Below, piece by piece: positions 678-25,713 of a stretch of DNA of 62,556 nucleotides. Below the pieces are notes generated by a model, which was not told the DNA's origin, searched no databases, and worked only from the letters and a program-made list of their open reading frames with translations. A program made the position numbers and the translations under genes. Each line of letters begins with the position of its first letter. The stretch's first letter is position 1. This stretch comes from Boseongicola sp. H5 (GTDB taxonomy: Bacteria > Pseudomonadota > Alphaproteobacteria > Rhodobacterales > Rhodobacteraceae): NCBI GenBank assembly GCA_020622165.1, contig JACNMN010000016.1, positions 1 through 62,556 of the forward strand. Direction: 5' to 3'.

Positions 678-728
678 GGATTTCTGGTTCATCGTAACCT
701 TTATGGAGTGAAGATGAACCAGAAATCC
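678..728 (+). promoter_or_regulatory. Hairpin sequestering the transposase start codon
   Basis: GGATTTCTGGTTCATC (678-693) is the exact reverse complement of GATGAACCAGAAATCC (713-728), with a 19-base loop. The orfA ATG (714-716) lies in the right arm and its GGAG site (705-708) in the loop. The left arm is also part of the terminal repeat. Only a transcript started outside the IS would contain both arms, so the structure would mask translation of read-through RNA. This is a known protective device in IS10 and IS50. The structure is seen; the function is inferred. Confidence 0.6.
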
Positions 729-1088
729 GGAACACGGCAGAGCCACGGCGAGAAGGTCGTGAAAGACATCCGTCGATCAACCCGCAAACAGTATTCAGCC
801 GAAGAGAAGATCAGGATCGTGCTGGACGGCCTGAAAGGCGAGGACAGCATTGCGGAGCTGTGCAGGCGCGAGGGCATTGCCCAGAGCCTCTATTACAGTT
901 GGTCGAAGGAATTCCTGGAGGCGGGAAAGAAGCGCCTTGCGGGCGACACGGCGCGTGCGGCGACATCGAACGAGGTGAAGGATCTGCGCCGGGAATCTCG
1001 CGATCTGAAAGAAGTCGTTGCCGAGCAGGCCCTCGAACTTCGGCTGCTCAAAAAAAGCATGATCGAGGATGGGGGCGACGACGAATGA
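714..1088 (+). CDS. IS3-family transposase OrfA
   Basis: This is a 124-residue protein with an N-terminal helix-turn-helix (KQYSAEEKIRIVLDGLKG..., GIAQSLYYSWSKEFLEAG) and a C-terminal leucine-zipper-like stretch, the standard IS3 OrfA layout. ATG 714 is preferred over GTG 708 because GGAG lies 5 bases before it. The stop overlaps the orfB start as ATGA. An A7 run at 1050-1056 precedes the overlap, and orfB is in the -1 frame with no intervening stop. An OrfAB fusion by -1 frameshifting is therefore possible, as is usual in this family. Confidence 0.9.
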   Translation: MNQKSGTRQSHGEKVVKDIRRSTRKQYSAEEKIRIVLDGLKGEDSIAELCRREGIAQSLYYSWSKEFLEAGKKRLAGDTARAATSNEVKDLRRESRDLKEVVAEQALELRLLKKSMIEDGGDDE

Positions 1089-2065
1089 GATACGCTGCAT
1101 CCGAGAAGCTGGAGATCATCCGTTTGGTTGAGCAGTCGCATCTGCCGACCAAGCGCACCCTGGACAAGCTCGGCATTCCCAGAACGACCTTCTATCGCTG
1201 GTATGACAGGTATCTGTCCGGTGGCCCCGAAGCCCTTGAGGATCGCAGCCCCAGGCCGTCACGGGTCTGGAACCGCATTCCCGAGCCGGTGCGCGAGAAG
1301 ATCAAGGACCTGGCGTTGAAGGAGAGCGAACCGTCGCCACGCGAGCTTGCCGTGCGCTTCACGGACACGGAAAAGCATTTTGTGTCAGAGGCTTCGCTCT
1401 ATCGCATCCTCAAATCCTACGACCTGATCACCAGTCCGGCCTATGTGGTTCTGTCGGCAGCAGATGAGTTCAAAGACAAGACAACGCGTCCCAACGAGCT
1501 GTGGCAGACAGACTTCACCTATCTGAAAGTGATCGGCTGGGGCTGGTTCTATCTCTCGACGATCCTGGACGATTACAGCCGTTACATCATCGCCTGGAAG
1601 CTCTGTACGACGATGAAGGCCGAGGATGTGACCGACACGCTCGACCTCGCGCTGCAGGCTTCGGGTTGTGATCAGGCAACGGTGCTTCACAAGCCGCGCC
1701 TGCTCTCCGACAACGGCGCCAGTTACATCTCGGGCGAACTGGCTGATTGGCTGGATGATCGGCAGATGGATCATGTCCGCGGTGCACCTTATCATCCGCA
1801 GACCCAGGGCAAGATCGAGCGCTGGCACCAGACCTTGAAGAACCGCATCCTGCTGGAAAACTACTACCTGCCAGGCGATCTCAGGCAGCAGATCGACGCC
1901 TTCGTCAATCACTACAACCACCGGCGCTATCATGAGAGCCTGCAAAACCTCGCGCCCGCTGACGTCTACTTCGGGCGCGGCCAAGCCATCTTGAAACAAC
2001 GAGAAAGGATCAAACGAAAGACCATCGAAACGCGACGCTTGCTTCACCGCAAATCCGCCGCATAA
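1085..2065 (+). CDS. IS3-family transposase OrfB (DDE integrase core)
   Basis: This 326-residue protein catalyses strand cutting and joining of the IS. It has an N-terminal HTH_21-like part (GIPRTTFYRWYDRYLSG) and then the rve catalytic core. The acidic triad is visible: D in WQTDFTYL, D in LSDNGASY and E in GKIERWHQ, followed by the HYNHRRYHESL signature. The length is normal and no disruption is seen. It begins inside the orfA stop (ATGA) and probably works as the OrfAB fusion. Confidence 0.92.
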   Translation: MRYAASEKLEIIRLVEQSHLPTKRTLDKLGIPRTTFYRWYDRYLSGGPEALEDRSPRPSRVWNRIPEPVREKIKDLALKESEPSPRELAVRFTDTEKHFVSEASLYRILKSYDLITSPAYVVLSAADEFKDKTTRPNELWQTDFTYLKVIGWGWFYLSTILDDYSRYIIAWKLCTTMKAEDVTDTLDLALQASGCDQATVLHKPRLLSDNGASYISGELADWLDDRQMDHVRGAPYHPQTQGKIERWHQTLKNRILLENYYLPGDLRQQIDAFVNHYNHRRYHESLQNLAPADVYFGRGQAILKQRERIKRKTIETRRLLHRKSAA

Positions 2066-2103: not shown

Positions 2104-3253
2104 GGCAGCCATCTGTCCCAAAATCCCTGACCACGGACAGACCGAAGGTGAACACCGGCACACCGAGATCACAACACCGCACCTCTATACCGAGGGGTTC
2201 AGTCTCTTTGCGGCACGTGATCTGCAGAATGCGGAGCTTTTCCACCACAATGGAGGGCGCCTGTCCTTGACCACCTTCGCCGACGAGACGACCGACCTGC
2301 AGTTCCCTGCTCGGATCGAGACAGCTGTTGCAATCGGCGCGGGCCGTGTTGCCATCATTATGGCGCCATTGGTTGGCCAAGGAGACAGCAAGCTTCTCAG
2401 CATCGTCGATTTCGGAGTCGCGGAGCGTTTCGGCCAGATCGGGTTGCCGCGCAGCGCGGAACCGCATGACCCCGCTTCAGAAATTGGCCCGCACTATAGT
2501 CTTCGCCCCCCTGATGATCCACTACGACAGAGCTGTGTTGATGTGGCAGAACAGCCCGGCTGGCGGAGCACTTCCTCTGAAACAGTGCGTTTGGCGTCAG
2601 CAGCGGGTCCGGTCACGATACTGCGTGACCTGTTGCAAGAAGAGAGCTGCCTCAAGGTTTCACCATCGGGTGAATATGCCGCGATCTGGCACGGTGCTGC
2701 GCTGCATATTCTGCAAGCTGAGACGGGTCAGGTGGTTGCTCGATACAGCATAGCGACACCACCCCGCGATTTCGCCTTTTCGGAATGCTGCGAACCTGCC
2801 ATTCTTATCGCTGATGCAAACGCTATTGTTTACAAGAGCTTGCCCCGCCTAACCACTTACCTCGATGATCAGGGAGTGGAGGTAGAGATCAGATATGCCG
2901 ATGACAACCAATTAGCCTGGGCCATTTTGCTCGCGGACGGCCCGATCCTGGGTATCGACCTGTCGCCCGATAATAGCCGCATACTCTATACCATCGCCAC
3001 TAGTGCTGGTGTTCTTGAGGCCCGGCTTCATTCTGTCGTATCTGGCGAAACTTGGGCAACTCTGGGTAGGTCTTCGAGCCTGCTTGAGAGCTATTTCATT
3101 AATAATCACGCTGTCTATTTCCGGCAGCCTGGCCGAACCTTTATATACGAACTCACGATGCTGGACGACGCGCAGACCCTCATCCGAGAGTCGTTGAGTG
3201 CCCATTGCCAATTTGAAGGAGAGTTGATGGAACGCTCTGACTGTACGAGATGA
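2104..3253 (+). pseudogene. Beta-propeller (WD40-like) protein, 5'-truncated by the IS
   Basis: The frame is open straight out of the IS end at 2103. The first usable start codon is only TTG 2267, so the N-terminal part has been lost to the insertion. The remaining ~380 codons contain propeller-type blades such as VSPSGEYAAIWHGAALHILQ, DAETGQVVARYS-like repeats and LSPDNSRILYT. No transmembrane segment is seen. Large WD40 proteins of this kind are often C-terminal sensor parts of bigger proteins, but the missing half prevents a functional call. The fragment is probably not functional. Confidence 0.6.
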
Positions 3254-3369
3254 TGGTGTTTTCTGCGGTTAGCTCCTTGGCGGGGCCGGATGGTTATACG
3301 TTTTGATGAGGAGCTAGACACCGGGGGTAAATACAGGTCCTCACGCGTGACCCGTGCGTGGTTCCGAAA

Positions 3370-3674
3370 CCCTTGCTTTCGTTACGCAATGCAATAGTAC
3401 TGACCTGCAAAGGCGGTGTCCATGACTACACCCGCAAGCAGGGCCTCAAGGAGACGTTCATTGTCGCTCCGAAGGATTCCCCTGACTGGCCGGAGAGGTT
3501 CTAGATGTCGCCAAGACCGACGGCGTCAAGATCGAGTAGATGCACGGCGTCTGGGCCAAGTTGCAGAACCGGGTTCTGGAGCGTGTCGATCATCGGTCCC
3601 TTGACGAACGGCGCGAGAAGGCGGCAGCGGAGCGCGAGGACCGGTTGCGCGACGAGGCGCTACGTCTTGCGTAG
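3370..3674 (+). pseudogene. MobA/MobL-type relaxase relic
   Basis: Fragments of a mobilisation relaxase survive. One frame reads VHDYTRKQGLKETFIVAPKD followed by SPDW and soon a stop. A second piece reads VWAKLQNRVLERVDHRSLDE followed by RREKAAAEREDRLRDEALRLA and a stop. HDYTR..G and the ERVDHRSL motif are hallmarks of the MobA/MobL family, where they lie well apart, so there is a large internal deletion plus stop codons. It shows that this end of the window once carried a mobilisable plasmid or element different from the trb system further right. Confidence 0.65.
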
Positions 3675-3731
3675 GTATCAATGGGTTGATTGGCTCAATA
3701 GTCTCGCAAGGAATTGCGGAGGGACCTAAGG

Positions 3732-3812
3732 ATGAAAGAGTTGGATAAGAAAATCGAAACGAGTCGCGCCGACGATTCGGCCTGCCGTCAAGCGGCCGCA
3801 TCACACACTTGA
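3732..3812 (+). CDS. Possible 26-residue ORF
   Basis: A short frame starts with ATG 3732 (MKELDKKIETSRADD...) with AAGG directly before it. It lies between the relaxase relic and the protease array. It has no recognisable family and may be chance. The rest of 3675-3846 shows nothing I can name. Confidence 0.15.
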   Translation: MKELDKKIETSRADDSACRQAAASHT

Positions 3813-3846
3813 CTGGTGGACGCTGGGCGAGTCATGCTAGGTAGCC

Positions 3847-5384
3847 GTGGAAGAAGAGAATCCGGAATTAGACCCAATTCTGATACACCTTACAAAGCAG
3901 CAAAAAAGTGCTCAAAGACACGGAATCTTTTCAGTGCTTAAGAGAAGCAAAGAAATAGTCTTTTCAGCTAGCCTGGTGTGTGCTGCAACGATCGCATCCG
4001 GAGCGTGGTATGCCGACCGAGACAACTCTTCGGTGCCGCTTTCCGGAAACCATCCGCAATTCGACGCATTTGTGACGTTCGCGGCCAGTCAAGGCATCAG
4101 CCAAGGTGTACAGGTCTGCCCGAACGTCTTTCTCGCGACCGGTCACGGCGTAGATGAAACGTTGAACGCGGGCCTGGAGGCAGTGCAGAATTGGATCAAG
4201 ATCATTCAGTATCCGATGTCAGACATACGTTTTTTCGATCTGGAGCCTGGAAATTTCGATCTTACGACAGAGTATCTGGAACGCTTCGGCAGACCGCGAT
4301 CACAGCGCGACTATGCGTTCTTTTCCGTGGACGCTGGCCTTGCCCCTCATCCGGAGACGTTTATTCGACCAGTCATTGCAGTCGATGGTTCGGAGATTGT
4401 AGCCTTTTCTGAAACAGGAGACCTAGACATCCATTCCTTTCGTCCCGCCACTAGGTTTGATTTAGATAGCGATGGAATTCCCAACTTTGACCAGAGTATA
4501 GCGCTCAGCGGGTTAGATACATTAATGCCCATTTATGATGCGCCGAGATTTACAGCGCAGCGCTGTGAGCTCACACCTGATCAATTCGGTGATGTTCTTA
4601 GTCATTCCTGTCCCACGGAAGCTGGTGTTTCCGGCAGTGCAGTCGTCATCGAAGCTGAGGGTCAGTTTTTTTGACGGCGATGCAGATTCAAGGACGGGGT
4701 GCTGTGGTCGAAAGCTTCGACCCGATTGGTCTTGAGAACGCCGCTTTACCCTCACGTCAATTTTGCGACGATTATGAAGCGGTCTGTGGCCAACCCTGCG
4801 CCCAACTGTCGGACCTGGTTGACCCGACCACACCGGGGGTGTCCTTCCTGGACACCCGCCTGGCACGAATAAGTGAAGCATGCGAGAACAACTGGCCTGC
4901 TTGCCAGACCTCCGCCTACAGTCTTGCACTGGAGGCGCGCCACGGCACTGCGCAGATGCCCCGAGATCCCGCGCAGGCGCTGGCGTTGCTGCGTCTAGCC
5001 GCCACTAGTGGTTCCGCTTCCGCCCATCTCGACCTCGCGCTGTTGCACGAGGCTCCTGTGACCGATGCCGACATCCGCGCGCGGGCCGTATGGCAGGGCA
5101 TTGCAGAAGCCCGCCAGCGCACCGTTCCCGACCTACGCGCCCTCTTCGAACTGGCCGCGCCGATCACGCCCGACCCCGACACCGCCGCTGAGCACCACAT
5201 CGCCGCGCTGGAGGCCGGCCTCAACACCATGCTCTACAGAAGTGCCGAAGACTGGCCCGAGGCCATCGCCCATACACTCCAGCAGCACCTTGCCCGGCGC
5301 GGCCTCTACACTGGTGCTATCGATGGGCGGATCGGGCCGGGGGCGCAAGCCGCGATGGAGGTGCTCTGCCAATGCGGGCCCTAG
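3847..5384 (+). pseudogene. Trypsin-like protease / Sel1 / PG-binding protein, copy 1 (frameshifted)
   Basis: This is the first of four tandem paralogues. From a GTG at 3847 it has a longer N-terminus than the others, then a hydrophobic export segment (about residues 38-55) and a chymotrypsin-fold domain. The domain has His in LATGHGV (~100), Asp in QRDYAFF and Ser in GVSGSAVV. The frame stops at 4672-4674 (TTTTTTTGA). The paralogues show that the protein should continue in the next frame with LTAMQIQGRG, which needs T8 instead of T7. The second frame (from 4671) carries the Cys-rich linker, Sel1-like repeats and a C-terminal peptidoglycan-binding-like motif. It could be a decayed gene, a phase-variable tract or a sequencing error. 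Confidence 0.75.
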
Positions 5385-6844
5385 TAGCAGTACTCAGCGT
5401 CGCAGCGGTTTTAACGGGCACAAGCTCGGTGGCCGGATGGTTTAGAGATCGCAACAACTCGATGCATCCCTTGTCTCGTTCAGAGTCGGGCGAAACTCCA
5501 TTCGTCATCGTCGATTCGATGACAGGTTACACGCAAGGCTCATTTGCTTGTCCCGGCGTCGTGTTGACCACAGCCCATGGCGTTTTGCCAAATCCCTCAC
5601 GCTGGTGCGAACTGATGGGCGAAGATCGCCCCCTTCCTCCGACAGAAGAGTATTTGCAGTACATCAATCCGTACCCCATGCAGGATAACCGGTTCTTTCG
5701 CGCGGCTGGGGCGCGGTTTCTATCGCCGCACGACATCTGGCAAAGTGGACCGAACCGGCCACTTTCAGCCGAGGACTACGTTTTCATTCGACTTGCCGGG
5801 GAAATCGTCCCGACTACACAGATCACACCGCTCAGCTTTGACCCGGAGGCGCTTCAGTTTCTCAGTGAGACTGGGGCACTTGATTTGCATACGGTCCGTG
5901 GGCGTACCAGGTTTGAGCCCGATGACGACGGGTTTCCCGACTTGAACCCAGACAATCTCTCCACTGAGTTTGATGTCGTTGCGGCCGTGTATGATGCTGC
6001 CCACATCGTGGCGCAGCGTTGTGAATTCACACCAGATGCCGCGTTGGAGACGATCAACTCCAGTTGCGGTTCTGAACAAAGTGTCTCGGGGAGTCCGCTT
6101 GTAAGCGAGATACGCGGGCAAATGTACCTCACCGCTATCCATACGCGCGGTCTAGACACTCATTTTGAGCAGTTTGAAAGTATTGGGGCGATGGCCATAG
6201 CCGCTGCTATGTCTGATCGTATCTGCGCCGATTATGAAGCGGTCTGCGGCCAACCCTGCGCGCAGCTGTCCGACCTGATCGACCCACCCACACCTGGTGT
6301 GAGCTTTCTGGACGCCCGCCTGGCACGCATAAGCGAGGCCTGCGAGAACAACTGGCCTGCCTGCCAGACCTCCGCCTACAGTCTTGCATTGGAGGCCCGC
6401 CATGGCACTGCGCAGATGCCCCGCGACCCCGTGCAGGCGCTGGATCTCCTACGCGCCGCTGCAGACAACGGCTCCGCCCCTGCCCATCTAGACCTCGCGC
6501 TGCTGCATGAGGCCCCCGTGACCGACGCCGACACCCGCGCCCGCACCGTCTGGCAGGGCATCGCAGAGGCCCGTCAACGCACCGTCCTCGACCTGCGCGC
6601 CCTCTTCACCCTGACCGCCGCGATCACGCCGGCCCCCGAAATCGCCGCCGATCATCACTTCGCCGCCCTCGAAGGCGGGCTGAACACAATGCTCACCCGC
6701 AGCCCCGCCGACTGGCCAGAACTCACCGCCCGCGCGCTGCAATCCCGCCTCGCTGAACGCGGCCTCTACACTGGCCCCCTTGATGGCCAGATCGGCCCCA
6801 CCACTCAAATCGCGATGGAGGCGCTGTGCCAATGCGGACACTAA
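5372..6844 (+). CDS. Exported trypsin-like protease with Sel1 and PG-binding module, copy 2
   Basis: This intact 490-residue protein starts with a signal peptide (residues 1-21, ending near SVAGWF). The protease domain (~22-260) has His69 in TTAHGV, Asp135 in AEDYVFI and Ser241 in SVSGSPL, a complete chymotrypsin-type triad. From ~286 a Cys-rich segment (DYEAVCGQPCAQLSDL) leads into Sel1-like helical repeats (ALEARHGTAQMPRDP, SAPAHLDLALLHEA). The last ~30 residues (GLYTGPLDGQIGPTTQIAME) resemble a peptidoglycan-binding repeat. It is probably periplasmic or wall-associated. It overlaps copies 1 and 3 by 13 nt each, implying translational coupling. The substrate is unknown. Confidence 0.8.
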   Translation: MRALVAVLSVAAVLTGTSSVAGWFRDRNNSMHPLSRSESGETPFVIVDSMTGYTQGSFACPGVVLTTAHGVLPNPSRWCELMGEDRPLPPTEEYLQYINPYPMQDNRFFRAAGARFLSPHDIWQSGPNRPLSAEDYVFIRLAGEIVPTTQITPLSFDPEALQFLSETGALDLHTVRGRTRFEPDDDGFPDLNPDNLSTEFDVVAAVYDAAHIVAQRCEFTPDAALETINSSCGSEQSVSGSPLVSEIRGQMYLTAIHTRGLDTHFEQFESIGAMAIAAAMSDRICADYEAVCGQPCAQLSDLIDPPTPGVSFLDARLARISEACENNWPACQTSAYSLALEARHGTAQMPRDPVQALDLLRAAADNGSAPAHLDLALLHEAPVTDADTRARTVWQGIAEARQRTVLDLRALFTLTAAITPAPEIAADHHFAALEGGLNTMLTRSPADWPELTARALQSRLAERGLYTGPLDGQIGPTTQIAMEALCQCGH

Positions 6845-8280
6845 TTGCAGCTTTGTCTGGTCTTGCCGTATGCGCGACTGCTGCAGCGGCGGCTTGGTTT
6901 GAGGATCGGGACAATTCGATGCAACCCCTGCCTACGACCACTGGGCACGGGTTGGCGCTCGCGACGGTTTTCTCGAGGAGCGGAAAATCCCAAACCGTAC
7001 AAGTCTGCGAAGGGGTCTATCTGGCGACGGCTCATGGAGTTTTGGACAACCCTTCCGGAGCGCGAGCTGATGGGCGACCAACGGAAAACCCCTCAAGCAA
7101 TCTCTATGGGCTAACACCATATCCGATTTCTCGACAGACAGTGATGGCTGCTCAAACTGACGACCGGTTCGTCTCCCCGCGAGTACGCGACGTTCTTGAG
7201 TGGAATCATCCGACCACAGATTACGTGTTCGTGACGATTGACCTCCCTTCGAGGTCTGAGATCGTTCGTCCCATCGCTGCGAGCGTGGCCGCCTTGCAAT
7301 CAGCGTCCAACCAGGGGCAACTGGATATCCATCTACTCCGGCCGTTGACGCGATTTGTGATCAACGATGATGGCTTGCCGCATCTTGGCGGTAGTATGAG
7401 GTACAACACGTTTGACGAGATGGAACCACTTTACCGAGCAGCCCATCGTGTTAATCAACGGTGCGAGATCGAGCCTGGATACGAGTCGCTGGTTGGCACT
7501 TATTGCCCGACCGAGCACTCCATTTCTGGAAGCAGCTACGTGGTAGAAATCTCAGGTCAAAACTATTTAGCAATGATGCATGCATTTGGGCTTGCTGAAG
7601 TCAGCTCCGATGCTCGGAGCGAAGTCTTGTCGAATGCCGCCATTCAAGCCCGTCATTTCTGCGAAGACTACGAAGACGTCTGCGGCCAACCCTGCGCACA
7701 ACTGTCCGATCTGGTTGACCAGCCCACACCGGGGGTGTCCTTCTTGGACACCCGCCTGGCACGAATAAGTGAAGCATGCGAGAACAACTGGCCCGCTTGC
7801 CAGACCTCTGCCTACAGTCTTGCACTGGAGGCGCGCCACGGCACCCGGCAGATGCCCCGCGATCCCGTGCAGGCGCTGGAATTGCTGCGCATGTCTGCTG
7901 CAAACGGCTCGGCCGCCGCCCATCTCGACCTCGCTTTGTTGCGCGAGGCTCCCGTGACCGATTCCGACATCCGTGCGCGGGCCGTCTGGCAGGGCATTGC
8001 AGAAGCCCGTCAGCGCACCGTTCCTGACCTCCGCGCCCTCTTCGAACTGGCCGCGCCGATCACGCCCGATCCCGAGATCGCCGCCGACCACCACATCGCG
8101 GCGCTGGAAGGCGGCCTGAATACTATGCTTGCCCGCAGCGCCGCCGACTGGCCAGAACTCACCGCCCGCGCGCTGCAATCCCGCCTTGCAGACCGCGGTC
8201 TTTACACCGGTGCTGTCGATGGGCGGATCGGGCCGGGCACCCGAACCGCGATGGAGGCGCTGTGCCAATGCGGTATCTGA
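6832..8280 (+). CDS. Exported trypsin-like protease with Sel1 and PG-binding module, copy 3
   Basis: The layout is that of copy 2, with 482 residues from ATG 6832; an in-frame GTG at 6826 is less likely because the ATG overlap is conserved between copies. A signal peptide ends near AAAAAWF. The triad residues are His68 (LATAHGV), Asp130 (TTDYVFV) and Ser234 (SISGSSY). The protease half is strongly diverged from copies 1 and 2, while the C-terminal ~200 residues are nearly identical at both protein and DNA level. It is the last intact member of the array. The stop TGA (8278-8280) lies within the first codons of copy 4. Confidence 0.8.
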   Translation: MRTLIAALSGLAVCATAAAAAWFEDRDNSMQPLPTTTGHGLALATVFSRSGKSQTVQVCEGVYLATAHGVLDNPSGARADGRPTENPSSNLYGLTPYPISRQTVMAAQTDDRFVSPRVRDVLEWNHPTTDYVFVTIDLPSRSEIVRPIAASVAALQSASNQGQLDIHLLRPLTRFVINDDGLPHLGGSMRYNTFDEMEPLYRAAHRVNQRCEIEPGYESLVGTYCPTEHSISGSSYVVEISGQNYLAMMHAFGLAEVSSDARSEVLSNAAIQARHFCEDYEDVCGQPCAQLSDLVDQPTPGVSFLDTRLARISEACENNWPACQTSAYSLALEARHGTRQMPRDPVQALELLRMSAANGSAAAHLDLALLREAPVTDSDIRARAVWQGIAEARQRTVPDLRALFELAAPITPDPEIAADHHIAALEGGLNTMLARSAADWPELTARALQSRLADRGLYTGAVDGRIGPGTRTAMEALCQCGI

Positions 8281-8931
8281 AACGCACCCTCGTGGCGCTC
8301 CTCCTCGCCCCCACCTTCGCGCTCGCCTCTTGGACCGACGGCAAGATCGACCTGCGCCCCCTCGACCCCGACGATCCGGTCGGCATGCTGATGATGGGGG
8401 CGATGGTCACCGTAAACATCGCGGGCGCCAACGACCATACCCAGGCCGTGCAAGTCTGCGAAGGCGTTTAATTGGCCACCGCCCACGGCCTGATGAACGA
8501 CACCCACACGCCGCGGCCCGAATACCAGATCCATATGGTCGCCTACCTCTATTCCCGCGCCAATGCGATGCGCGCGGTGGAATTCTTCAGCCCTCGCCTC
8601 GACGGCACCGCCCCGGAGAGCGGCCGCCGCAATCGCACCATGTGGTTTGTGCCCCTCGTCTCAGATGCGCGCAAAAACAACAGCTTAGGTGTGACAGAAA
8701 CCCCGGCGGAACGCCAACCGTTTTGCCACGTCTTCGCCGCCGTTGGACTTTCCAACATCTTCAGGATACGGCGGGAACCGTGTGGGTCAGGCAATGCTGC
8801 ACCTGAATGGCAGTGCGAGATCTGCCGCCGGAGCGGTAACGATAATGGGCCCTCCTTATGTATCCCTCAGGGCCGAATTGCTCCGTGATGGCGTTCTTCT
8901 TTTCTCAGTTTCGTGCAAGCCCTATGACTGA
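8268..8931 (+). pseudogene. Protease paralogue copy 4, nonsense and frameshift
   Basis: The gene starts with ATG 8268 inside copy 3 and has a good signal peptide (TLVALLLAPTFALASW). At 8469-8471 the codon matching Tyr in EGVYLATAHG of copy 3 is TAA. The frame then continues with LATAHGL, so the His region survives. The Asp motif is replaced (NRTMWFV instead of TDYVFV). A frame change near 8742 is needed to reach the terminal part, which ends VSCKPYD at 8931. No GxSGS motif and no Sel1/PG-binding module remain. It is a decayed and probably chimeric copy. Confidence 0.7.
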
Positions 8932-9114
8932 CGTGGGAAGGTTTTTGAGGGTCACGAAAGAGATCCGAAAAGCAGGCTTACTGGGAACAGATCGTCGAAT
9001 TGCATAGTGCTGGGTAAAGAGCAGAGGACCTCGTGCGGCAGTTCGACATTTCAAGGCATGCCATACCTAGGTTGACTTGGTTCGCTTCGAAGAACAGCGC
9101 CCCACTTCTCGGTC

Positions 9115-11316
9115 TCAGGCCGGCCCGATGTGTAGCCTTTCCGCCCAAAGGGTTCCGTCTCCAAGCAAAAGCCCCATCGCACCGCTTTCGAGCGCCGTGT
9201 CTTCACTGGACAACTGGAGCCCGTTCACGCAGGCCGTCAGTTGCTGATCTCGCACCGTCGCTTCTACATCGAGCGGTTGTGCCAGGTCATAGTCGATCTT
9301 TCCTGACGCGAGGATGCGGATATCCATGTCATGGCGATGGATCAGGTCTACCTTTCCATCGCGCGCGACTCGCACCGCGTAGTATCGGCGCAGGCCCCGT
9401 GCACGGAGCGCCACACCGCAATACGCGCCATGGGCGAGCGTGATCCGCCCAGAAACGGTGTAATTGCGCCAATCGCGTGTGCCTTGCGTGACGATGCCCT
9501 CACCCCGGTCGTTGATCACCTGGATGTCCGGCGGATACCGCCGCGACAGGGCGGTCGCGCCGTTGACGAAAGCGAGCCGCCAGGCATCGGGCGCCTTGTC
9601 CTTGCGACCGCGAAAGGTCGTATGGCCGTCATCGGGCCGCAGGATGGTGAAATCCGGCGCACCGTCCCACCAAACCTTGTCGAGAAGGATCGTGCCGTTT
9701 TGCCCCGCCGACGGCGCGGCGTCCGGGGTCGAGATGTGGACGCCGATCGCACCGATGGGCTGACCGCCGTTTTCGGGCAATACCCACGTAAGGTCTTTCT
9801 CCTCGCCTGGGGCGACGGTGGCGGTCGGCCCCATCACATCCACGAGCCTATCGTTCAGGTCGAACACCTTGATCATCGGTGCGGTATCGATCGCCCCTCC
9901 GTTTTCCGGCGCGGCCTTGAGCCTTATGCGCAGGGTCTGGCCCGGATACACCCGGGGGCAGGCCTGCAAGGAGTATTCACGCATTTCGGGCGGGGAGGCC
10001 GTTGCGGCGTAGACCGTGGCGGGGGCGGAGGGCGACACCCCTTCGAATGTCACCGCCAAAGCCCCATCGCCCTCACCCGGCACCTGTCGGACGGATGTGC
10101 GCGCACGGTGCTCACCTTCCTCCGCGATGAACCCCTGGACGCTTCCGCGGAGCAAAAAATGATAGGGTGCGCCGTCCTTCGGCGCGGGCAACGGATCGTG
10201 CCCGGCAAGACGACGTCCCATGTCGGCGATCCAGAGAGCGATCTCGGCACCGTTGGTGATAGACCGCCCGCCCTCCGCCGAAGACACGAACAGCCGATCG
10301 GCGACCGGATGCCGGAACGCGTGGTCGCCCTTCGGCCCGTCGAGCGCGTCTAGCCCCAACATGATGCCCATCAGGCAGCCGAGGTTGCCCGCATTACAAT
10401 CGGTGTCCCACCCGCTCGTGTTCACGATCATCTGCGCCTCGGCGAAGTCGTTCGGGGCATAGAGCAGCGCCATGATCATCAGCGCGTGGTTAGGAATGAC
10501 GTGGCAGGAGCCGAGGTAGTGCTGATACCCGTAATGTGTCTGTATGCGCTTCAGCGTGACACGCCAGTCGCCATCTTCGGCCACCCATTTGCGAATATCC
10601 GCAATCAGGCGCGCGATATCACCGTCGGCAGGAATCTGCGCCAATCCGGTGGCAAGCAGGTGCTCGACATCGCTGGAAACGAACGCCTCGGCTTCCATCG
10701 CCGCCCACAAGGCCGCAGCGTCGACGGCGGACCCGTCGTGGCTGACGCGGCCCGCACTCCGCGCCAGCCGGGCGGCCAATTCAGGTTGGCCCGGGGCTAC
10801 CATCGCCCACCCGTCGATGAATATCTGCGCCCCGATCTGCTCCGCGACCGTCGCACCATTGGTTTCGATCGACCCTGATGCAGGCGCGGCAATTCCGTGG
10901 TCGAGGTTCAGCCAGGCCGTATGTTCCGTCGAGGTGCCCTTGCCTCCCCACCAAAGCACGGTCCGGTGTTCGATCAAGTTGTTGAGCCAGGCGCGGCCCA
11001 CCGCTTCGGACGGGAGATCGGCGGGGCAGCCCTCGTCTTCGAGGGCGCGGAGGAAGGTGAACGTGCCCGACAGGTCATCGTCCACGACGATCAGGGGGAC
11101 GCCGCATTTCTCATGAACGTAGCCTCGAATTTCGCCCAATTCGCGCATGATCTTTTCATGCGTCCACTGCTCGACCGGGCGGCCCAGATAGACGCCGATC
11201 ATCTTCCCCAGAACACCTGCGTAGACACGCTCGACGTAATCGTCAGGGAGATTGACGGGGGTTTTCGCGTGTTCCGCGCTTTGCGCATCCCGCGATGCGA
11301 CGGCTGTTTGACCCAT
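9115..11316 (-). CDS. ADP-ribosylglycohydrolase-family protein with C-terminal sugar-binding-like domains
   Basis: The N-terminal ~330 residues match the ADP-ribosylglycohydrolase (DraG/ARH) fold. Evidence is GKMIGVYLGRPVEQW, the acidic metal-site stretch VVDDDLSGT and the second ligand motif NTSGWDTDCNAGN. The C-terminal ~350 residues are beta-rich and look like one or two jelly-roll modules. I prefer the ATG at 11316 (MGQTAVA) because GGAGG lies 8 bases upstream; an in-frame ATG also exists at 11337. Family members in sugar-use clusters probably act on a glycoside-like substrate rather than on ADP-ribosylated protein, but that is inference. It is divergent from the SGNH gene, with an operator candidate in between. 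Confidence 0.8.
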   Translation of the reverse strand: MGQTAVASRDAQSAEHAKTPVNLPDDYVERVYAGVLGKMIGVYLGRPVEQWTHEKIMRELGEIRGYVHEKCGVPLIVVDDDLSGTFTFLRALEDEGCPADLPSEAVGRAWLNNLIEHRTVLWWGGKGTSTEHTAWLNLDHGIAAPASGSIETNGATVAEQIGAQIFIDGWAMVAPGQPELAARLARSAGRVSHDGSAVDAAALWAAMEAEAFVSSDVEHLLATGLAQIPADGDIARLIADIRKWVAEDGDWRVTLKRIQTHYGYQHYLGSCHVIPNHALMIMALLYAPNDFAEAQMIVNTSGWDTDCNAGNLGCLMGIMLGLDALDGPKGDHAFRHPVADRLFVSSAEGGRSITNGAEIALWIADMGRRLAGHDPLPAPKDGAPYHFLLRGSVQGFIAEEGEHRARTSVRQVPGEGDGALAVTFEGVSPSAPATVYAATASPPEMREYSLQACPRVYPGQTLRIRLKAAPENGGAIDTAPMIKVFDLNDRLVDVMGPTATVAPGEEKDLTWVLPENGGQPIGAIGVHISTPDAAPSAGQNGTILLDKVWWDGAPDFTILRPDDGHTTFRGRKDKAPDAWRLAFVNGATALSRRYPPDIQVINDRGEGIVTQGTRDWRNYTVSGRITLAHGAYCGVALRARGLRRYYAVRVARDGKVDLIHRHDMDIRILASGKIDYDLAQPLDVEATVRDQQLTACVNGLQLSSEDTALESGAMGLLLGDGTLWAERLHIGPA

Positions 11317-11351
11317 CGACATTTCCTCCCTAGACATGCCTTGGAGCTCTA

Positions 11352-11387
11352 TGGTCCATATTGGTTTATAATGATACGCATTGGTTT
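11352..11387. promoter_or_regulatory. Candidate GntR operator 1
   Basis: TGGTCCATATTGGTTTA (11352-11368) matches two other sites in the cluster to the pattern TGGTYYAWWTTGGT. A further half site ATTGGTTT follows at 11380-11387. It lies in the 257-base gap between the minus-strand ADP-ribosylglycohydrolase gene and the plus-strand SGNH gene, so it could control either or both. The rest of this gap shows nothing else I can name. Confidence 0.5.
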
Positions 11388-11573
11388 GCGCGCGTCAACA
11401 CCAAGTTGCACGCGGAGGCGGCGGAGATCGCGTTGCGGCGGATCGGGAGGGGCGGGAATGACACGACACATGGCACGACAATCGGTCGGTTTCCGTGCGA
11501 GCGGGATCGTTCGTCTCGTCACGTCACCTGCCAGGATTGTGGTACAGGCTGACGGTTCAAGGGCGCAGCGCCG

Positions 11574-12200
11574 ATGATCGACGAGGCGACCGACCCGGTT
11601 CTCTGTTTCGGCGACAGCAATACTTGGGGTTACAACCCCCAGACCGGCGGTCGCATGCCCCGCGCGGTGCGATGGCCGGGACGGCTCGAAGGGCTGTCGA
11701 ACATCCGCGTCATCGAAGAAGGGCTACGCGGGCGGACGACCGTGAAACCGGACCTCGTGGGCCTGAAATCAGCAGCCGAGCCGTATTTTTCCGATTGCCT
11801 GGCCACGCACCTGCCGCTGTCGCTGGTCGTCATCATGCTAGGCACCAACGACCTCAAGGCGCACCAGGAAACATCGGTCGAAGAGATTGTACGACATTTG
11901 CTCGCCATGGCGGATCGGGTGGTTGAGGTCGGGGTAGACGTGCTGATCGTACCGCCGCCGCGTATCACGACGTTGCACGGTCGGTTCGAAGCGGGTTTCG
12001 TAGGTGCGATCGAAAAATCCGAGGCGCTGACGCGCGACTTGATTGCCGAATGTCGAAACGTGAATGTGCCCTGTTTTCATCCCGAGCCGGATCACGCTGG
12101 CAATGATTTCGACCCGATCCACCTCGACACGGCCCGTCACGCAGCGCTGGCCGATGCGCTTGCGCCGGTCGTAAGGGGTATGGTCGCAGGCAACCGATGA
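11574..12200 (+). CDS. SGNH/GDSL-family esterase
   Basis: This 208-residue hydrolase has all four SGNH blocks: block I FGDSNTWG (nucleophile Ser, residue ~14), the Gly of block II in EGLRGRTT, block III GTND (~89-92) and block V DPIHLD with the catalytic Asp-His pair near residue 181. There is no signal peptide, so it is cytoplasmic. Relatives deacetylate sugars or hydrolyse small esters, and its place at the head of a sugar-acid cluster suggests removal of an acyl group from an imported sugar. It is followed by the NIPSNAP and lactonase genes on the same strand. Confidence 0.85.
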   Translation: MIDEATDPVLCFGDSNTWGYNPQTGGRMPRAVRWPGRLEGLSNIRVIEEGLRGRTTVKPDLVGLKSAAEPYFSDCLATHLPLSLVVIMLGTNDLKAHQETSVEEIVRHLLAMADRVVEVGVDVLIVPPPRITTLHGRFEAGFVGAIEKSEALTRDLIAECRNVNVPCFHPEPDHAGNDFDPIHLDTARHAALADALAPVVRGMVAGNR

Positions 12201-12309
12201 GCGACAATGTCCGCCGCGCGAGCAGGGATGACGACTCTTCCGGCGCAGGCTTGGGCGACGTGAGCGGTATCAGGGCTACGACGAAATGAAGGATGGAGAG
12301 CGGAACGAT

Positions 12310-12666
12310 ATGATCACCTGTTACATTCGCTATGAGATCGACCCCGACAAGGTCCCTGAGTTCGAGGCTTACGCCAAAGCCTGGATCGCCCTGATCCCGC
12401 GGTTTGGTGGCACACATCACGGCGTGTTCCTTCCCGGCGAAGGGCCATCGGACGTGGCCATGGTGTTGTTTTCGTTTCCGTCTTTCGCGGCCTATGAAGA
12501 CTACAAGATCGCTTGCCGCAAGGACCCCGACTGCATCGAGACCTGGGCCTTCGCGAAAGCCGCAGGGTTCATGAAACGCTACGACAGGCTGTTCTTCCGG
12601 CCCGAGTTCGAAGGCGATCTCGAAAGCTTCCGCGAGATGCACCGCGCCTTGCGGGAGGAGGGATGA
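12310..12666 (+). CDS. NIPSNAP-family protein
   Basis: The protein has 118 residues, a ferredoxin-like alpha/beta fold, and the NIPSNAP pattern ITCYIRYEIDPDKVPEFEAY at the start with FFRPEFEGD near the end. ATG 12310 is chosen because the family begins right before the first strand; an ATG at 12286 is in frame but adds residues outside the family. Molecular function is unknown for bacterial members, which commonly sit in catabolic operons. The stop overlaps the next start as ATGA. A second, broken NIPSNAP gene occurs at 32241. Confidence 0.8.
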   Translation: MITCYIRYEIDPDKVPEFEAYAKAWIALIPRFGGTHHGVFLPGEGPSDVAMVLFSFPSFAAYEDYKIACRKDPDCIETWAFAKAAGFMKRYDRLFFRPEFEGDLESFREMHRALREEG

Positions 12667-13523
12667 TGGACGCCCAAATCCTGAGCGATGTGACCAGTGC
12701 GCTCGGCGAGGGGTGTCTGTGGCATCCGACGCGGGCGTCCATCCTTTGGGTCGATATCTTCGGCGGCAGCGTTCACGAGATGCACGGGGGCGCGCATCGA
12801 TCCTGGGATCTGGGCGAATTGGTGGGTGCGCTCGCCTGGGTGTCGGACCGCGAGGTTCTCGTCTCGACAAAAACCGGCCTGCGGCGGTTGGACCTCGACA
12901 ACGGCCATGCAGACCTGATCGCCGTGGTCGAGCCGGACCGCCCGGACCGCCGAGCCAATGACGGGCGCGCCGATCACCAGGGGGGGTTTTGGTTCAGCAT
13001 GATGGATACTAAGCATCGCAGCGAAAAGGCCGTCATCTACAGGTACTATCGCGGCGAGATCCGCGCCCTGCATGATGGCTTGACCGTGCCGAACGCGACC
13101 TGTTTCTCGCCCGATGGGCTGTGGGCCTATTTCGGGGATACGCGGACGAGCATCGTCTATCGTCAGAGTCTAGACGAAGCGACGGGATGGCCGCGCGGAG
13201 AGGCCGAAACCCTCGTGGATTTCTCGCAACCGCGGCGACGCCCAGACGGTGCGACCGTGGATGCTGACGGCGCCTTGTGGATCGCGATGTGGGGCGAAGG
13301 GCTGGCGCTTTGCGTGGCGCCGGACGGGCGCCCCGTGCGGCAGGTCTCGATCGGCACGCCCAATGCCTCCTGCGTCTGCTTCGGCGGGTCCAACCTGCAG
13401 GATTTGATATTGACGTCGGCGACGACCGATATCGACCTGTCGACGGACGCACGCGCCGGCAAGACCTTCATTCTGCCCGGCGTTGCGCAAGGCGTGGCTG
13501 AACCGAAGGTGATCCTCGCCTAA
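12663..13523 (+). CDS. SMP-30/gluconolactonase-family lactonase
   Basis: This 286-residue six-bladed beta-propeller enzyme probably hydrolyses a sugar lactone to the aldonate. The metal-site residues of the family are present: Glu in ALGEGCLWHP (~15), Asn in VPNATCFSPDG and Asp in RRPDGATVDADG. A strong GGAGGAGG precedes ATG 12663, which overlaps the NIPSNAP stop. It ends 4 bases inside the convergent GntR gene. In the proposed pathway it acts after an SDR dehydrogenase oxidises the sugar to a lactone. Confidence 0.88.
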   Translation: MMDAQILSDVTSALGEGCLWHPTRASILWVDIFGGSVHEMHGGAHRSWDLGELVGALAWVSDREVLVSTKTGLRRLDLDNGHADLIAVVEPDRPDRRANDGRADHQGGFWFSMMDTKHRSEKAVIYRYYRGEIRALHDGLTVPNATCFSPDGLWAYFGDTRTSIVYRQSLDEATGWPRGEAETLVDFSQPRRRPDGATVDADGALWIAMWGEGLALCVAPDGRPVRQVSIGTPNASCVCFGGSNLQDLILTSATTDIDLSTDARAGKTFILPGVAQGVAEPKVILA

Positions 13524-14254
13524 GTGGGGCGTCCGCTGTCGGTGATCCGTGCCAGGATCGCAGCGAGGTTCTGATCGCGGAACCGCGCGGCGGCCGTAGC
13601 ATCCCGATTGCGTAGCGCTTCGAGGAACTCGCGACCCTGTAGGCAAGAGCGTTCGCGCTCCTCCTCGGTATTGACGAGATAGCCGAGCCGGTTCCAGCCG
13701 GTCTTCGCGCGTGCCGCGATCAGCAACTCGTACATAGACACGAGAAGCGGGTTGTGGGTCGCGCGGATGAACTCGAGGTGGAAGGTGAAGGCGGCGGCGC
13801 GAAACGCACTTGCGGTTTCGGCCGCTTCCATGGCGCGCAGGCCGCTTTCTATCCGATCCAGATCTTCGTCGGTGGCGCGGGCCACGGCCAGTTCGACGGC
13901 GCCGACCTCGATCACGCGCCGCGCTTCGATGGCCCCCATCGGGCTTATGTCGGGAGCATCGCGAAGCCAAGTCGGGCGTTCCGGAACATCCGGGTCGGTG
14001 ACGAAGGTGCCGGCGCCGACCTTGCGTTCGATCTTACAGTCGGCTTCGAGCTGATCCAGCGCCAGCCGGACGAGATTGCGGCTCACCCCGTAGCTTTCGG
14101 CCAACGCCCGTTCCGTGGGCAGACGCGTGCCAGGAGAAAGTTCTCCGCGTGTGATGGCAGACGCAATTTCCCGATAGATGGTCCGCTCGGAGTCGCGAGA
14201 GCCGCCGACGAGTATGGTGTTCGACTGAGAAGTCACGTGGATAGCCCTGATCAA
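13520..14254 (-). CDS. GntR-family (FadR/FCD-type) transcriptional regulator
   Basis: The N-terminal winged helix (IYREIASAITRGELSPGTRL, then LAESYGVSRNLVRLALDQLEAD) is followed by an all-helical FCD effector domain. The FCD metal/ligand residues fall within EFIRATHN and related positions. A TTG at 14254 is favoured because GGGGAGGA lies 6 bases upstream; an ATG at 14296 is in frame but has no ribosome site. It is divergent from the ABC/sulfatase operon. FCD regulators usually bind sugar acids and release DNA, so it is the likely local repressor acting at the three TGGT repeat sites. Confidence 0.85.
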   Translation of the reverse strand: MIRAIHVTSQSNTILVGGSRDSERTIYREIASAITRGELSPGTRLPTERALAESYGVSRNLVRLALDQLEADCKIERKVGAGTFVTDPDVPERPTWLRDAPDISPMGAIEARRVIEVGAVELAVARATDEDLDRIESGLRAMEAAETASAFRAAAFTFHLEFIRATHNPLLVSMYELLIAARAKTGWNRLGYLVNTEEERERSCLQGREFLEALRNRDATAAARFRDQNLAAILARITDSGRPT

Positions 14255-14323
14255 ACAATTCCTCCCCAAATTGGCATTGAGGATCGTAAATGGCAATAAC
14301 CTATCAAGATCGAATATTACCTA

Positions 14324-14352
14324 TTGACACCAATTTGAACCAATTTGATAGT
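14324..14352 (+). promoter_or_regulatory. Promoter with overlapping GntR operator 2
   Basis: TTGACA (14324-14329) and GATAGT (14347-14352) are separated by 17 bases, a good sigma-70-type promoter for the operon starting at 14384. The spacer contains CACCAATTTGAACCA (14328-14342), the reverse complement of the TGGTYYAWWTTGGT pattern. A protein bound there would block RNA polymerase directly. Negative control by the neighbouring GntR protein follows by inference. Confidence 0.55.
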
Positions 14353-14383
14353 GCGACAATCTTGCAGTTTTGGGAGGACTGGC

Positions 14384-14749
14384 ATGACACTTCTTAACAC
14401 CACGGGTGCACGCGCCATTGGGCGGCGCAGCTTTCTAAGAACCACCGCAGCGGCCAGCGCGGTCCTGTGCGCGCCGGGCTTGATGCGCAGGTCCTATGCG
14501 CAAGGCTCCAAGCCGTTTACCGTCTGGGTCTGGGGTGGGCCGGACCGGTTCGATGGCCGTATGAACACCTTTTACACGGCCTAGCCAGGGGAGATGGATC
14601 AGTTCGATGTCGATGTTCGCTCCCCCGGCGCTCATGACGCTGAGGTGTACCAGCAGCTACGCCTTGCTATGGCGAGCCGGTCCGATGTGCCGGATCTGGT
14701 GATGATGAACTGCATCACGGTGCCTGAGTTCACGGAAACGGGCATCTGA
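14384..14749 (+). pseudogene. Truncated duplicate of the ABC sugar-binding protein
   Basis: It has a Tat-like leader (GRRSFLRTTAAASAVLCAPG) and then KPFTVWVWGGPDRFDGRMN, nearly identical to the intact binding protein at 16282. An amber TAG at 14582-14584 interrupts the frame. The homology resumes (FDVDVRSPGAHDAEVY) and ends at a TGA after ~121 codons, whereas the intact gene has 453. It keeps the operon promoter and ribosome site, so it is transcribed ahead of the sulfatase. Only a short leader peptide could be made. Confidence 0.8.
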
Positions 14750-14761
14750 GGGAGGGATTTC

Positions 14762-16231
14762 GTGGGTCAGCGACCTAACATATTGTTTCTGCTGCCGGAT
14801 CAGCTGCGCCCAGATTTTCTCGGCTGCTATGGGGCCGATTTCCTGTGGACGCCCGCGATCGACGGGCTGGCGGCGCGCGGGACGCGGTTCGAGACGGCGC
14901 TCTCTCCCTCGCCGATCTGCGTGCCCGCGCGCGCCTCTTTGCTGACGGGGCAAAGCGCAGCCTCGACCGGTGTGATCGACAATCACAGCTGGCTGCGGCC
15001 CGACCGGCGCAAGATGGGCGCCCGCACGATCCCGGAATTCTTGACTGATGCGGGCTACCGCACCTGCGCGGTCGGCAAGATGCACTTCTATCCTTGGGAC
15101 ATTTCGGAAGGGTTCGACGAGCGCATTATCGCCGAGGACAAGCGGCATATTCACATAGAAGATGATTATGCGGCATTCCTTGAGGCAGCTGGCCACCGAA
15201 AACTGCATGGCCGCGATCAGCGCCTTTACGACGAGCAGAAAGGCGCATCGCTGAGTGATTTGCGGGACCGCGCGAATGTGGATCGGTGGGTGGCCGACCA
15301 GACCGCCGAGTGGATCGAAGGCCACTCGGGCGAGCAGCCGTTCTTTTTGATGGTGGGCTTCCCGGGCCCGCATTGTCCCTACGATCCGCCTGAGGACGCG
15401 CTGTCCGCGATCGATCCGACCAAGCTGCCCGAGGCATTGCCACCTGCCCCAGAGGACGCAAGCCTCCGCGAAGCGATGACGCGCTCCTACCGCAACTGGT
15501 GGGCAGAGGTCGATTATGAAACCTTGTCCGCCGACGAGATCCGCAAGATCCGTCACCACTACGCGGCGCTGGTCGAACGCTTGGACCAAGACGTCGCGAC
15601 CATCCTGGCAGCGCTGGAACGCGCTGGAAGCGCCAAGGAAACGGTTGTGGTTTTCGCCTCCGATCACGGGGATTACCTCGGCGATCACGGGTTGATCGGC
15701 AAAACCTATTTCCACGAGGCGAGCTTGCGTGTCCCGCTGATCGTCGCCGATCCCCGTAAACCCGTCGCGGCCGTGGATCCGACGCCAGCCACGTTGATCG
15801 ACCTGTTGCCGACATTCCTGGAACTTGCAGGCCTGCCGCCGGCCGCCCAGGCGGAGGGCAGATCGCTTCTGTCCGAACGGGTAGATGAACCAGTGATCGG
15901 GGTCACCACGCATGGCGTGATGGTACGGACCGCGACGCATAAACTGGTGCGCCATCGCAGCGGGGCAGAGGCGCTTTACGACCTCGCCTCAGATCCCTTC
16001 GAGGCGCACAACCTGATCGACGACCCCGCCCACACCGCGATCCGGCGTACGCTGGAGATCGCTTTGGTGGATCGGCTGCTTGCCGGGATGAAAGCGGGCC
16101 ACATGGACAAACACGTCACCGCCGCCTCCGCACCTGAACCGCACGCATTTCACAAAAGGGGCTGGCAAAGGCCCTATCCGCCACGCGTATGGGCCGACCC
16201 CGACGGCGCGGCATCGGAGGCCGCCGAGTAG
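14762..16231 (+). CDS. Sulfatase (formylglycine-dependent, Cys type)
   Basis: This 489-residue alkaline-phosphatase-superfamily enzyme cleaves sulfate esters. The metal site Asp13 is in LLPDQLR. The active-site motif C53-V-P-A-R57 followed by ASLLTGQ is the formylglycine signature, so a maturase (FGE) is needed; none is in the window. ASDHGDYLGDHG (~300) supplies further ligands. No signal peptide is seen, so it acts on an imported sulfated sugar. It starts at GTG 14762 after GGGAGGG. Its location between two sugar-binding protein genes ties desulfation to this pathway. Confidence 0.92.
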   Translation: MGQRPNILFLLPDQLRPDFLGCYGADFLWTPAIDGLAARGTRFETALSPSPICVPARASLLTGQSAASTGVIDNHSWLRPDRRKMGARTIPEFLTDAGYRTCAVGKMHFYPWDISEGFDERIIAEDKRHIHIEDDYAAFLEAAGHRKLHGRDQRLYDEQKGASLSDLRDRANVDRWVADQTAEWIEGHSGEQPFFLMVGFPGPHCPYDPPEDALSAIDPTKLPEALPPAPEDASLREAMTRSYRNWWAEVDYETLSADEIRKIRHHYAALVERLDQDVATILAALERAGSAKETVVVFASDHGDYLGDHGLIGKTYFHEASLRVPLIVADPRKPVAAVDPTPATLIDLLPTFLELAGLPPAAQAEGRSLLSERVDEPVIGVTTHGVMVRTATHKLVRHRSGAEALYDLASDPFEAHNLIDDPAHTAIRRTLEIALVDRLLAGMKAGHMDKHVTAASAPEPHAFHKRGWQRPYPPRVWADPDGAASEAAE

Positions 16232-16281
16232 CAAGCAACAGACCCGACCACGAGAAACCAAATCGCAAGGGAGGAAACGCG

Positions 16282-17643: not shown

Positions 17644-17656
17644 TGGAGGCAAAGGC

Positions 17657-18601: not shown

Positions 18602-19476
18602 CCGACACAACCACTCACCAAACGCAGACCGCGTTGCCCGAGGAAATGCCCGCCGAGCGGCGGTCGCGGACGATCATCCTGATCGTGCTGTTGATCGCTG
18701 CGATCTTTTTCACGTACCCGACCATCCAGATGCTGGTGAACTCGTTCAAATCGAACGACGGCATCATCTCGAACCCCTCCGGCCTGCCCGACCCCTGGAC
18801 GCTCAGCAGTTATGCCGACGGGTTCCTTGGCGATCGTGGGCTGACGCGGGCGTTGATCAACTCGATCATCATCTCCACCACCTCGACGGTGATCGCTGTG
18901 GCGCTGTCGGCAATGGCCGCCTACGGGTTCGCCAAGTTCCAGTTCCGTGGCCGCGACCTAATCTTCGCTGCGCTCTTGACGACGATGATGGTGCCGCCGG
19001 AGGTTTTGATCCCCGGCCAGTACTTGATCTTCGCGCGCCTGGGCCTGATCGAAACCCTGACGGTGCAGATCATCCCGACGGTCACGCCGGTGCTCGGCCT
19101 GTTCCTGATCCGGCAATACATGCTGTCGCTGCCCGATGAGATCATCGAAGCCGCGCGGATCGACGGCGCGTCGGAGTTCATGATCTTCCGCAGGATCATC
19201 CTGCCTATGGCCGCGCCCGTCCTGTCCGCCTACGCGATCCTGCATTTCCTGAGCGAATGGAACGCCTATCTCTGGCCGTCGATCGTGGCGACGACGCCTG
19301 AGGTCAAACCGATCATGGTGCTGTTGCCGCAGCTTGTGGACCAGGAGGTCGGCTTCCTGCCCGTCTACGGCACGATCATGGCGGGCTGCGTCGTGGCCAC
19401 CCTGCCCATGGTGATCGTGTTCCTGATCTTCCAGGACAAGATCATGAATTCCATCACGCTCGGGGCCGTGAAATGA
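18598..19476 (+). CDS. ABC sugar transporter permease (MalG type)
   Basis: The protein has 292 residues, six membrane segments and the EAA loop IIEAARIDGASEFMIFRRII near residue 190. It overlaps the upstream permease and the downstream dehydratase by 4 bases each (ATGA), so the three are translationally coupled. It is the second half of the importer channel in the cytoplasmic membrane. Confidence 0.92.
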   Translation: MTDTTTHQTQTALPEEMPAERRSRTIILIVLLIAAIFFTYPTIQMLVNSFKSNDGIISNPSGLPDPWTLSSYADGFLGDRGLTRALINSIIISTTSTVIAVALSAMAAYGFAKFQFRGRDLIFAALLTTMMVPPEVLIPGQYLIFARLGLIETLTVQIIPTVTPVLGLFLIRQYMLSLPDEIIEAARIDGASEFMIFRRIILPMAAPVLSAYAILHFLSEWNAYLWPSIVATTPEVKPIMVLLPQLVDQEVGFLPVYGTIMAGCVVATLPMVIVFLIFQDKIMNSITLGAVK

Positions 19477-20642: not shown

Positions 20643-20647
20643 CGCAC

Positions 20648-21418: not shown

Positions 21419-21430
21419 AATGGCCTCTTT

Positions 21431-25702: not shown

Positions 25703-25713
25703 GAGGGTCCCCC

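Follow-up and report, generated by a model that had tools for sequence, protein, structure and literature searches.

A tandem array of putative exported trypsin-like proteases with divergent heads and a nearly constant tail in Boseongicola sp. H5

What kind of system is encoded by four paralogous coding stretches that lie head to tail on a contig of the alphaproteobacterium Boseongicola sp. H5? They occupy positions 3847-8931 on the plus strand of the window, i.e., the whole stretch of 62,556 nucleotides (nt) analyzed here (contig JACNMN010000016.1). An initial annotation of this DNA, made from the letters alone, had proposed four such paralogues, and their existence was borne out both by the open reading frames (ORFs) and by the protein match between copies 2 and 3 (E 1.5e-158), which places the paralogy far beyond chance. 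We judge the chance to be somewhat better than even that the array forms, or formed until recently, a translationally coupled operon for exported serine proteases of the trypsin type, in which divergent protease heads are joined to a nearly constant tail. This reading is built on features of the sequence: overlapping genes, the order of the putative catalytic triad, mosaic divergence, a recombination signal in the tails, and the breakage of copies 1 and 4.

Copies 1 to 3 follow one plan, with an export-signal-like hydrophobic start, a domain carrying His, Asp, and Ser (the head), and a C-terminal module (the tail) made up of a Cys-rich segment, Sel1-like sequence, and a PG_binding_1-like end (Table 1). 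Successive genes overlap by 13 nt when counted from ATG; an upstream GTG, taken as the start of copies 3 and 4, would make the overlap 19 nt there. The start ATG of the next gene lies within the conserved end of the preceding C-terminal module, with GGAGG 10 nt 5' of it; the end of the tail therefore doubles as a likely ribosome-binding site for the gene that follows. Terminator-like hairpins on the minus strand were seen at the equivalent place in all three tails (4892-4910, 6352-6370, and 7788-7806). Terminator-like sites in 3200-9120 numbered 14, against 4.6 expected, an excess that may reflect the repeated GC-rich tail alone.

Table 1. Positions of the array copies and of mobile-element features upstream of them
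Feature	Position	Strand	Details
Copy 1, first frame: start region and protease head	3847..4674	+	His 4144, Asp 4309, Ser 4630
Copy 1, alternative GTG	3934	+	5' of the hydrophobic stretch
T7 run in copy 1	4666..4672	+	first frame stops just after it
Copy 1, remainder in a different frame	4671..5384	+	C-terminal module 4761-5381
Copy 2, open, 490 amino acids	5372..6844	+	His 5576, Asp 5774, Ser 6086; C-terminal module 6221-6841
Copy 3, open, 484 amino acids	6826..8280	+	His 7033, Asp 7219, Ser 7525; C-terminal module 7657-8277
Copy 4 remnant	8262..8931	+	signal-like start, TAA 8469-8471, His motif 3' of the TAA (8484)
Insertion sequence transposase ORFs (HTH_Tnp_1, rve)	708..2065	+
MobA/MobL relaxase relic	3400..3501	+	E 7.2e-4, below the Pfam cut-off

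Copies 2 and 3 are the sole open copies of the array. The first ORF of copy 1 ends right after the T7 run, one of three A/T runs of at least 7 in the whole window, and the rest of the gene stays open in another frame for 237 codons. Copy 4 has Arg at the Asp position and neither a Ser motif nor a C-terminal module. The initial annotation had assigned the full domain set to the three upstream copies and a signal with part of a protease to the fourth. The common plan is indeed present in copies 1 to 3, but copy 1 is out of frame at its T7 run and so not whole; copy 4 does keep a signal-like start and a His motif, but a stop codon separates the two and its Asp is gone.

Divergence among the copies is distributed unevenly along the genes. 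The heads share 35-38% amino acid identity, with a proportion of synonymous differences (pS) of about 0.8, so that synonymous sites are saturated, whereas the tails are 80-85% identical, with synonymous divergence (dS) of 0.47-0.80 and a ratio of nonsynonymous to synonymous divergence (dN/dS) of 0.14-0.21. Between copies 2 and 3 the step up in identity falls at about 6200. The G+C content of third codon positions (GC3) is 0.51-0.59 in heads 1 to 3 and 0.74-0.78 in the tails, and the remnant of copy 4 has 0.86; among sampled genes elsewhere in the window it is 0.74-0.89 at 9-28 kb and 0.52-0.61 at 31-38 kb. Within the tails of copies 2 and 3, 17 consecutive variable sites agree, a run reached in 0 of 10,000 permutations, as was the run of 10 at third positions. 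The longest runs for tails 1 and 3 were reached in 536 of 10,000 permutations at all sites and 113 at third positions, and those for tails 1 and 2 in 187 and 802, respectively. The strongest tract could have arisen because copies 2 and 3 converted each other or because copy 1 received foreign sequence; both would be recombination within the tails. What is unusual about the array is this inverted mosaic, together with heads that lack close relatives (see below), rather than its domain order.

The His, Asp, and Ser expected of S1/Trypsin_2 peptidases were found in trypsin-like order in copies 1 to 3 but not in copy 4, and three Cys residues were invariant among the three heads. Over 154 columns, hhalign aligned the heads with a set of 38 trypsins (one from the class and 37 from family loci) at a probability of 50.6 and E 1.6e-4; the triad residues and a Cys pair were in register. 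Scored with the trypsin model, copies 1 and 2 reached 10.4 and 10.3 bits, and the best of 900 shuffles reached 5.3. A profile of the three heads run against 385 genomes of the class had as its best non-self match (E 7.1e-4) a signal-bearing protein of locus L061 that lies above the Pfam Trypsin cut-off. Small trypsins of this kind occur in 134 of 149 family genomes; some form adjacent pairs, e.g., G164:C9:613128-614485 and G085:C1:3985453-3986846. A sequence search of the PDB with the head returned no firm match, the best entry being 7uxg_A ("Serine protease") at E 0.23. The heads are likely to be very divergent trypsin-like proteases; they pass no Pfam or NCBIfam cut-off and would probably be annotated as hypothetical. 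The identities dsbE and HxsA were rejected, their NCBIfam scores being far below cut-off.

Seven Cys residues are invariant across the three tails, and each protein has a single recognized Sel1 stretch, at 17.9-23.9 bits against a Pfam cut-off of 30.7. A profile of the tail matched 56 of 295 family genomes (Boseongicola sp. H5 and 55 others). When full-length tail-bearing relatives were scored with Pfam, Sel1 lay above its cut-off in five of five and PG_binding_1 scored 16.7-22.9 bits in four, just under its cut-off of 23; in the fifth it was not listed at E 0.01. The loci of tail-bearing matches that could be inspected numbered 36, of which 32 were distinct; many listed matches came without a locus. 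At 16 of these the matching frame carried a caspase domain, at 1 it carried a trypsin, and at the remaining 15 it had neither. At least 2 of the 15 had been cut by the locus edge; their full ORFs encode a caspase protein at L057 and a trypsin protein at L058. When 36 tails were placed in a tree, those of the window formed one group on a long branch (1.57), beside ten rows with no recognized peptidase in the fetched frame; the support for this grouping, 93/87, is below the tree's own support mark. The placement is weak evidence that a trypsin-like head and an ExoR-like tail were joined in a fusion event of their own. A PDB search with the tail likewise gave nothing firm: the matches were a tetratricopeptide repeat protein (6deh_A, E 0.019) and, at E 0.14-0.86, entries for spore cortex-lytic enzyme and SltB3.

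How widely is the array distributed? Matches to the copy 2 protein within the Boseongicola sp. H5 genome (46 contigs, 4.2 Mb, reported as 100% complete) were confined to the array. The genome samples searched are a small part of existing genomes. Among seven genomes of the genus the array was present in this strain alone, and its absence from the other six agrees with the accessory character suggested in the initial annotation. The protease head was detected at E 0.001 in Boseongicola sp. H5 only, both among 394 genomes of the family and among 299 of the phylum; the array was thus not found to be an ordinary family carried as single genes by all relatives. The class sample, at E 0.01, gave the own genome and three weak partial matches (the L061 protein, then E 0.00186 and 0.00754). 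The match at 0.00186, an ORF of locus L066, was taken as chance. No relative of the whole protein or of the head was found in plasmids and phages (tblastn), genome contigs, or viral contigs.

The surroundings support an accessory, island-like setting for the array; mobility of the array itself is not part of this claim. Its placement beside a relaxase relic and an insertion sequence, in line with the initial annotation, was confirmed, and low-GC3 ORFs lie upstream alongside these elements. Two such ORFs flank the insertion sequence at 49-660 and 2267-3253 (GC3 of 0.60 and 0.58), with stretches that look propeller-like by eye. They may be parts of one interrupted gene; neither had a Pfam match, and NCBIfam gave one chance-level match only. 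An A7 run is present at 1050-1056, close to the 3' end of the first transposase ORF, and insertion sequences of that transposase type often use frameshifting at such a place. Downstream of the array, 9115-27533 holds an ADP-ribosylglycohydrolase beside what appears by eye to be a set for sulfated-sugar catabolism and ABC transport. The region 28000-38000 has a GC content of 52-57%, adjoins tRNA-Arg (29068-29144), and includes the sampled genes at 31-38 kb with GC3 of 0.52-0.61; it looks like an island at a tRNA. On the minus strand, 38248-52959 carries a Trb-type conjugation cluster with TrbI, a TrbE/TraG-like ATPase, a DUF3363 relaxase, and an SLT transglycosylase.

Several results weigh against an operon of exported trypsin-like proteases. 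Pfam Trypsin_2 was matched by copy 1 only, with E 0.032 and 15.4 bits against a gathering score of 27.6, and no Pfam trypsin family was listed at E 1 for copies 2 and 3; the chymotrypsin-type domain of the initial annotation thus holds for the order of its residues but not at the level of family cut-offs. With the trypsin model, copy 3 scored 3.1 bits and was exceeded by five shuffles. Alignment of the heads with the two nearest trypsins of the same architecture (L058 and L063) gave an hhalign probability of 5.8 over 54 columns. AlphaFold models, for which the input was the window proteins only, had mean predicted local distance difference test (pLDDT) values of 33.3 and 30.3, too low for assignment of a double beta-barrel fold. 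The trypsin active-site motif is GxSGG, with an oxyanion Gly; in copies 2 and 3 this Gly is replaced by Ser. PG_binding_1 scores of the tails were 15.6, 17.4, and 20.2 bits, below the cut-off, and binding by this module is putative; the Sel1-like repeats and peptidoglycan-binding-like end proposed earlier are accordingly present in copies 1 to 3 as weak matches, but under the curated cut-offs and with one Sel1 stretch rather than repeats in each. No promoter-like site was found on the plus strand of 3200-9120, and the one on the minus strand compares with 1.6 expected. Finally, because two of the four copies are broken, the whole array may be decaying. Might the heads, then, not be trypsin-like at all, the His/Asp/Ser pattern being a coincidence in some other exported domain? 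The failure of every family cut-off, the scores of copy 3 among its shuffles, and the poor AlphaFold models would fit this idea. We nevertheless consider it very unlikely, given that the triad and Cys pair align with trypsins over the 154 columns, that copies 1 and 2 score above all 900 shuffles, and that the independent class profile search arrives at a trypsin. It is rather unlikely, in our estimate, that the array is a relic, once functional, with copies 1 and 4 dead, the others following, and no present role. The frame change in copy 1, the losses from copy 4 (stop codon, Asp, Ser motif, and tail), the adjoining mobile-element debris, and the absence from six other genomes of the genus would all fit such a relic. 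Against it, copies 2 and 3 remain open over 490 and 484 codons with their triads retained, dN/dS in the tails is 0.14-0.21, and the tail of copy 1 is still an open frame past the T7 run.

If the array is instead an operon of trypsin-like proteases, its proteins would reach the periplasm or the cell surface, where the shared tail would tether all the proteases to one common site or partner, such as the cell wall or a Sel1-binding protein, and the diverged heads would cut different substrates. Gene conversion would keep the tails alike, and the heads would drift or be selected apart, in an accessory region where the array is losing members. The likeliest use would be cleavage of foreign or envelope proteins outside the cytoplasm. 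A regulatory or self-processing role in the envelope seems unlikely to us, though it has an analogy in its favor: the tail would recruit the protease to a sensor in the periplasm or to a wall partner and cleavage would set a signal, by analogy with the binding of a sensor kinase by ExoR-like Sel1 proteins. According to one report, ExoR-type Sel1 proteins act via periplasmic binding, an as yet unidentified protease of the periplasm cleaves ExoR, and some ExoR relatives carry PG_binding_1 or a C14 peptidase (PMC4550343). The grouping of the window tails with rows lacking a recognized peptidase would also agree with such a role, but that grouping is without marked support on its long branch, no regulator or kinase gene was identified beside the array, and its rare occurrence fits a core regulator poorly. 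It is more doubtful still that the proteases serve at the surface as weapons or defenses, aimed at rival cells, phages, or grazers in a contest that would diversify the heads. The uses suggested in the initial annotation, namely envelope defense, competition, and processing of surface proteins, are speculative. The accessory setting, the very uneven distribution, the far greater divergence of heads than of tails, and the recurrence of sister-kind tandem exported proteases in relatives would suit this idea. However, a search of five pieces of the array against PADLOC defense families yielded no defense family match (the best, LmuA at E 0.027, was rejected as an identity), and no recurrent partner stands beside the array. 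Moreover, the genes overlap and leave no ORF space, and there is therefore no room for immunity genes between copies; a toxin-immunity arrangement was rejected on this ground. Polymorphic toxin systems have a constant N-terminal part, a variable C-terminal toxin, and an adjacent immunity gene, whereas in the window the variable part is N-terminal.

How does the array compare with known systems? The Spl proteases of Staphylococcus aureus, which presumably have no Sel1/PG-binding tail, offer a comparison by way of working rather than by sequence. SplA to SplF are likewise reported as several secreted serine-protease-like paralogues (PMC8765433). A Tryp-(Sel1)6 protein of Pelodictyon luteolum, printed in 2008, resembles the window proteins in having a trypsin followed by Sel1 repeats; the likeness is by description, and the available part of that source mentions neither a PG-binding end nor an array (PMC2605481). 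Other papers describe prokaryotic caspase homologues with Sel1 and peptidoglycan-binding domains (PMC3501461) and conflict systems with trypsin and caspase peptidases (PMC7159879). Our literature search, mostly outside subscription journals, returned no description of the window array or of the trypsin/DUF4384/OmpA grouping described below, and nothing on point for tandem serine proteases with gene conversion.

Two other genera encode the order of trypsin, Cys linker, Sel1, and PG-binding in single genes (L058:10300-13212 and L063:6516-9134), whose products share with the window proteins a signal-like start and a Cys pair ahead of the catalytic Ser. They differ in having strong Trypsin_2 matches (E 5e-19 and 5.9e-18) and several Sel1 repeats, and their protease parts align poorly with the heads. 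A profile of their trypsin domain matched 14 of 295 family genomes at E 1e-20, and at the same threshold had no match in Boseongicola sp. H5. Many of the matched proteins are about 700 amino acids long; in ten run through Pfam, the additional domain was a beta-helix in five, SH3 in two, and WD40 in one, and the other two had none. We also observed a recurrent group in relatives, consisting of a signal-bearing trypsin-like protease, a DUF4384/cytochrome c-like protein of about 800 amino acids, and an OmpA-family protein. Both partners were present at 9 of 22 loci with trypsins of the L058/L063 profile type (L058, L098, L100, L102, L104, L105, L106, L108, and L110), OmpA only at 2, and neither at 11. 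The window has neither partner, and the DUF4384 protein had no match in the strain's own genome, which also speaks against the weapon or defense role.

Trypsins stand in tandem at three loci, with four copies at L097 (three adjacent and the fourth past a small ORF) and two each at L098 and L099. As in the window, the genes are neighbors on one strand and encode trypsin-like proteases with a signal; most of these also have a linker containing Cys and, at the C terminus, a repeat or a binding part. Their C-terminal parts, however, are beta-helix, SH3, WD40, or unassigned, unlike the Sel1/PG-binding-like tail, and they are 19-37% identical where the proteases are 63-84% identical, the reverse of the window. 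Three tandem caspase-Sel1-PG_binding genes, two of them checked with Pfam, lie at L057:6080-14951; an additional caspase-domain ORF was seen at 15130-16884. They show that a tail of similar kind can be arranged in tandem, but there the peptidase is a caspase (C14), and the catalytic part (61-68% identical) is again better conserved than the last 140 residues (35-48%). Because same-order single genes and tandem sister arrays (trypsin in four, two, and two copies; caspase in three) exist, the array has known parallels, and the initial view that the arrangement is without a described counterpart is not supported. A tentative idea, to which we assign a low probability, is that the locus swaps or diversifies its heads, the constant tails serving as a common anchor and as recombination arms flanking each head. 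With tails as such arms, new heads could be gained and divergent heads kept, the tail being held constant by gene conversion. Such a locus would reverse the pattern of the related arrays, where a single protease is combined with changing tails. If our preferred reading of the array as an operon of divergent trypsin-like heads on one tail is true, periplasmic caspase- and trypsin-type enzymes would share one stock of wall- or partner-binding tails, and the substrates of such arrays would become a direct question. Across the four related arrays the catalytic part is conserved at 61-84% and the rest at 19-48%, and the window is reversed; exported protease arrays of these bacteria would then diversify in two opposite ways, with one protease and many tails or one tail and many proteases.

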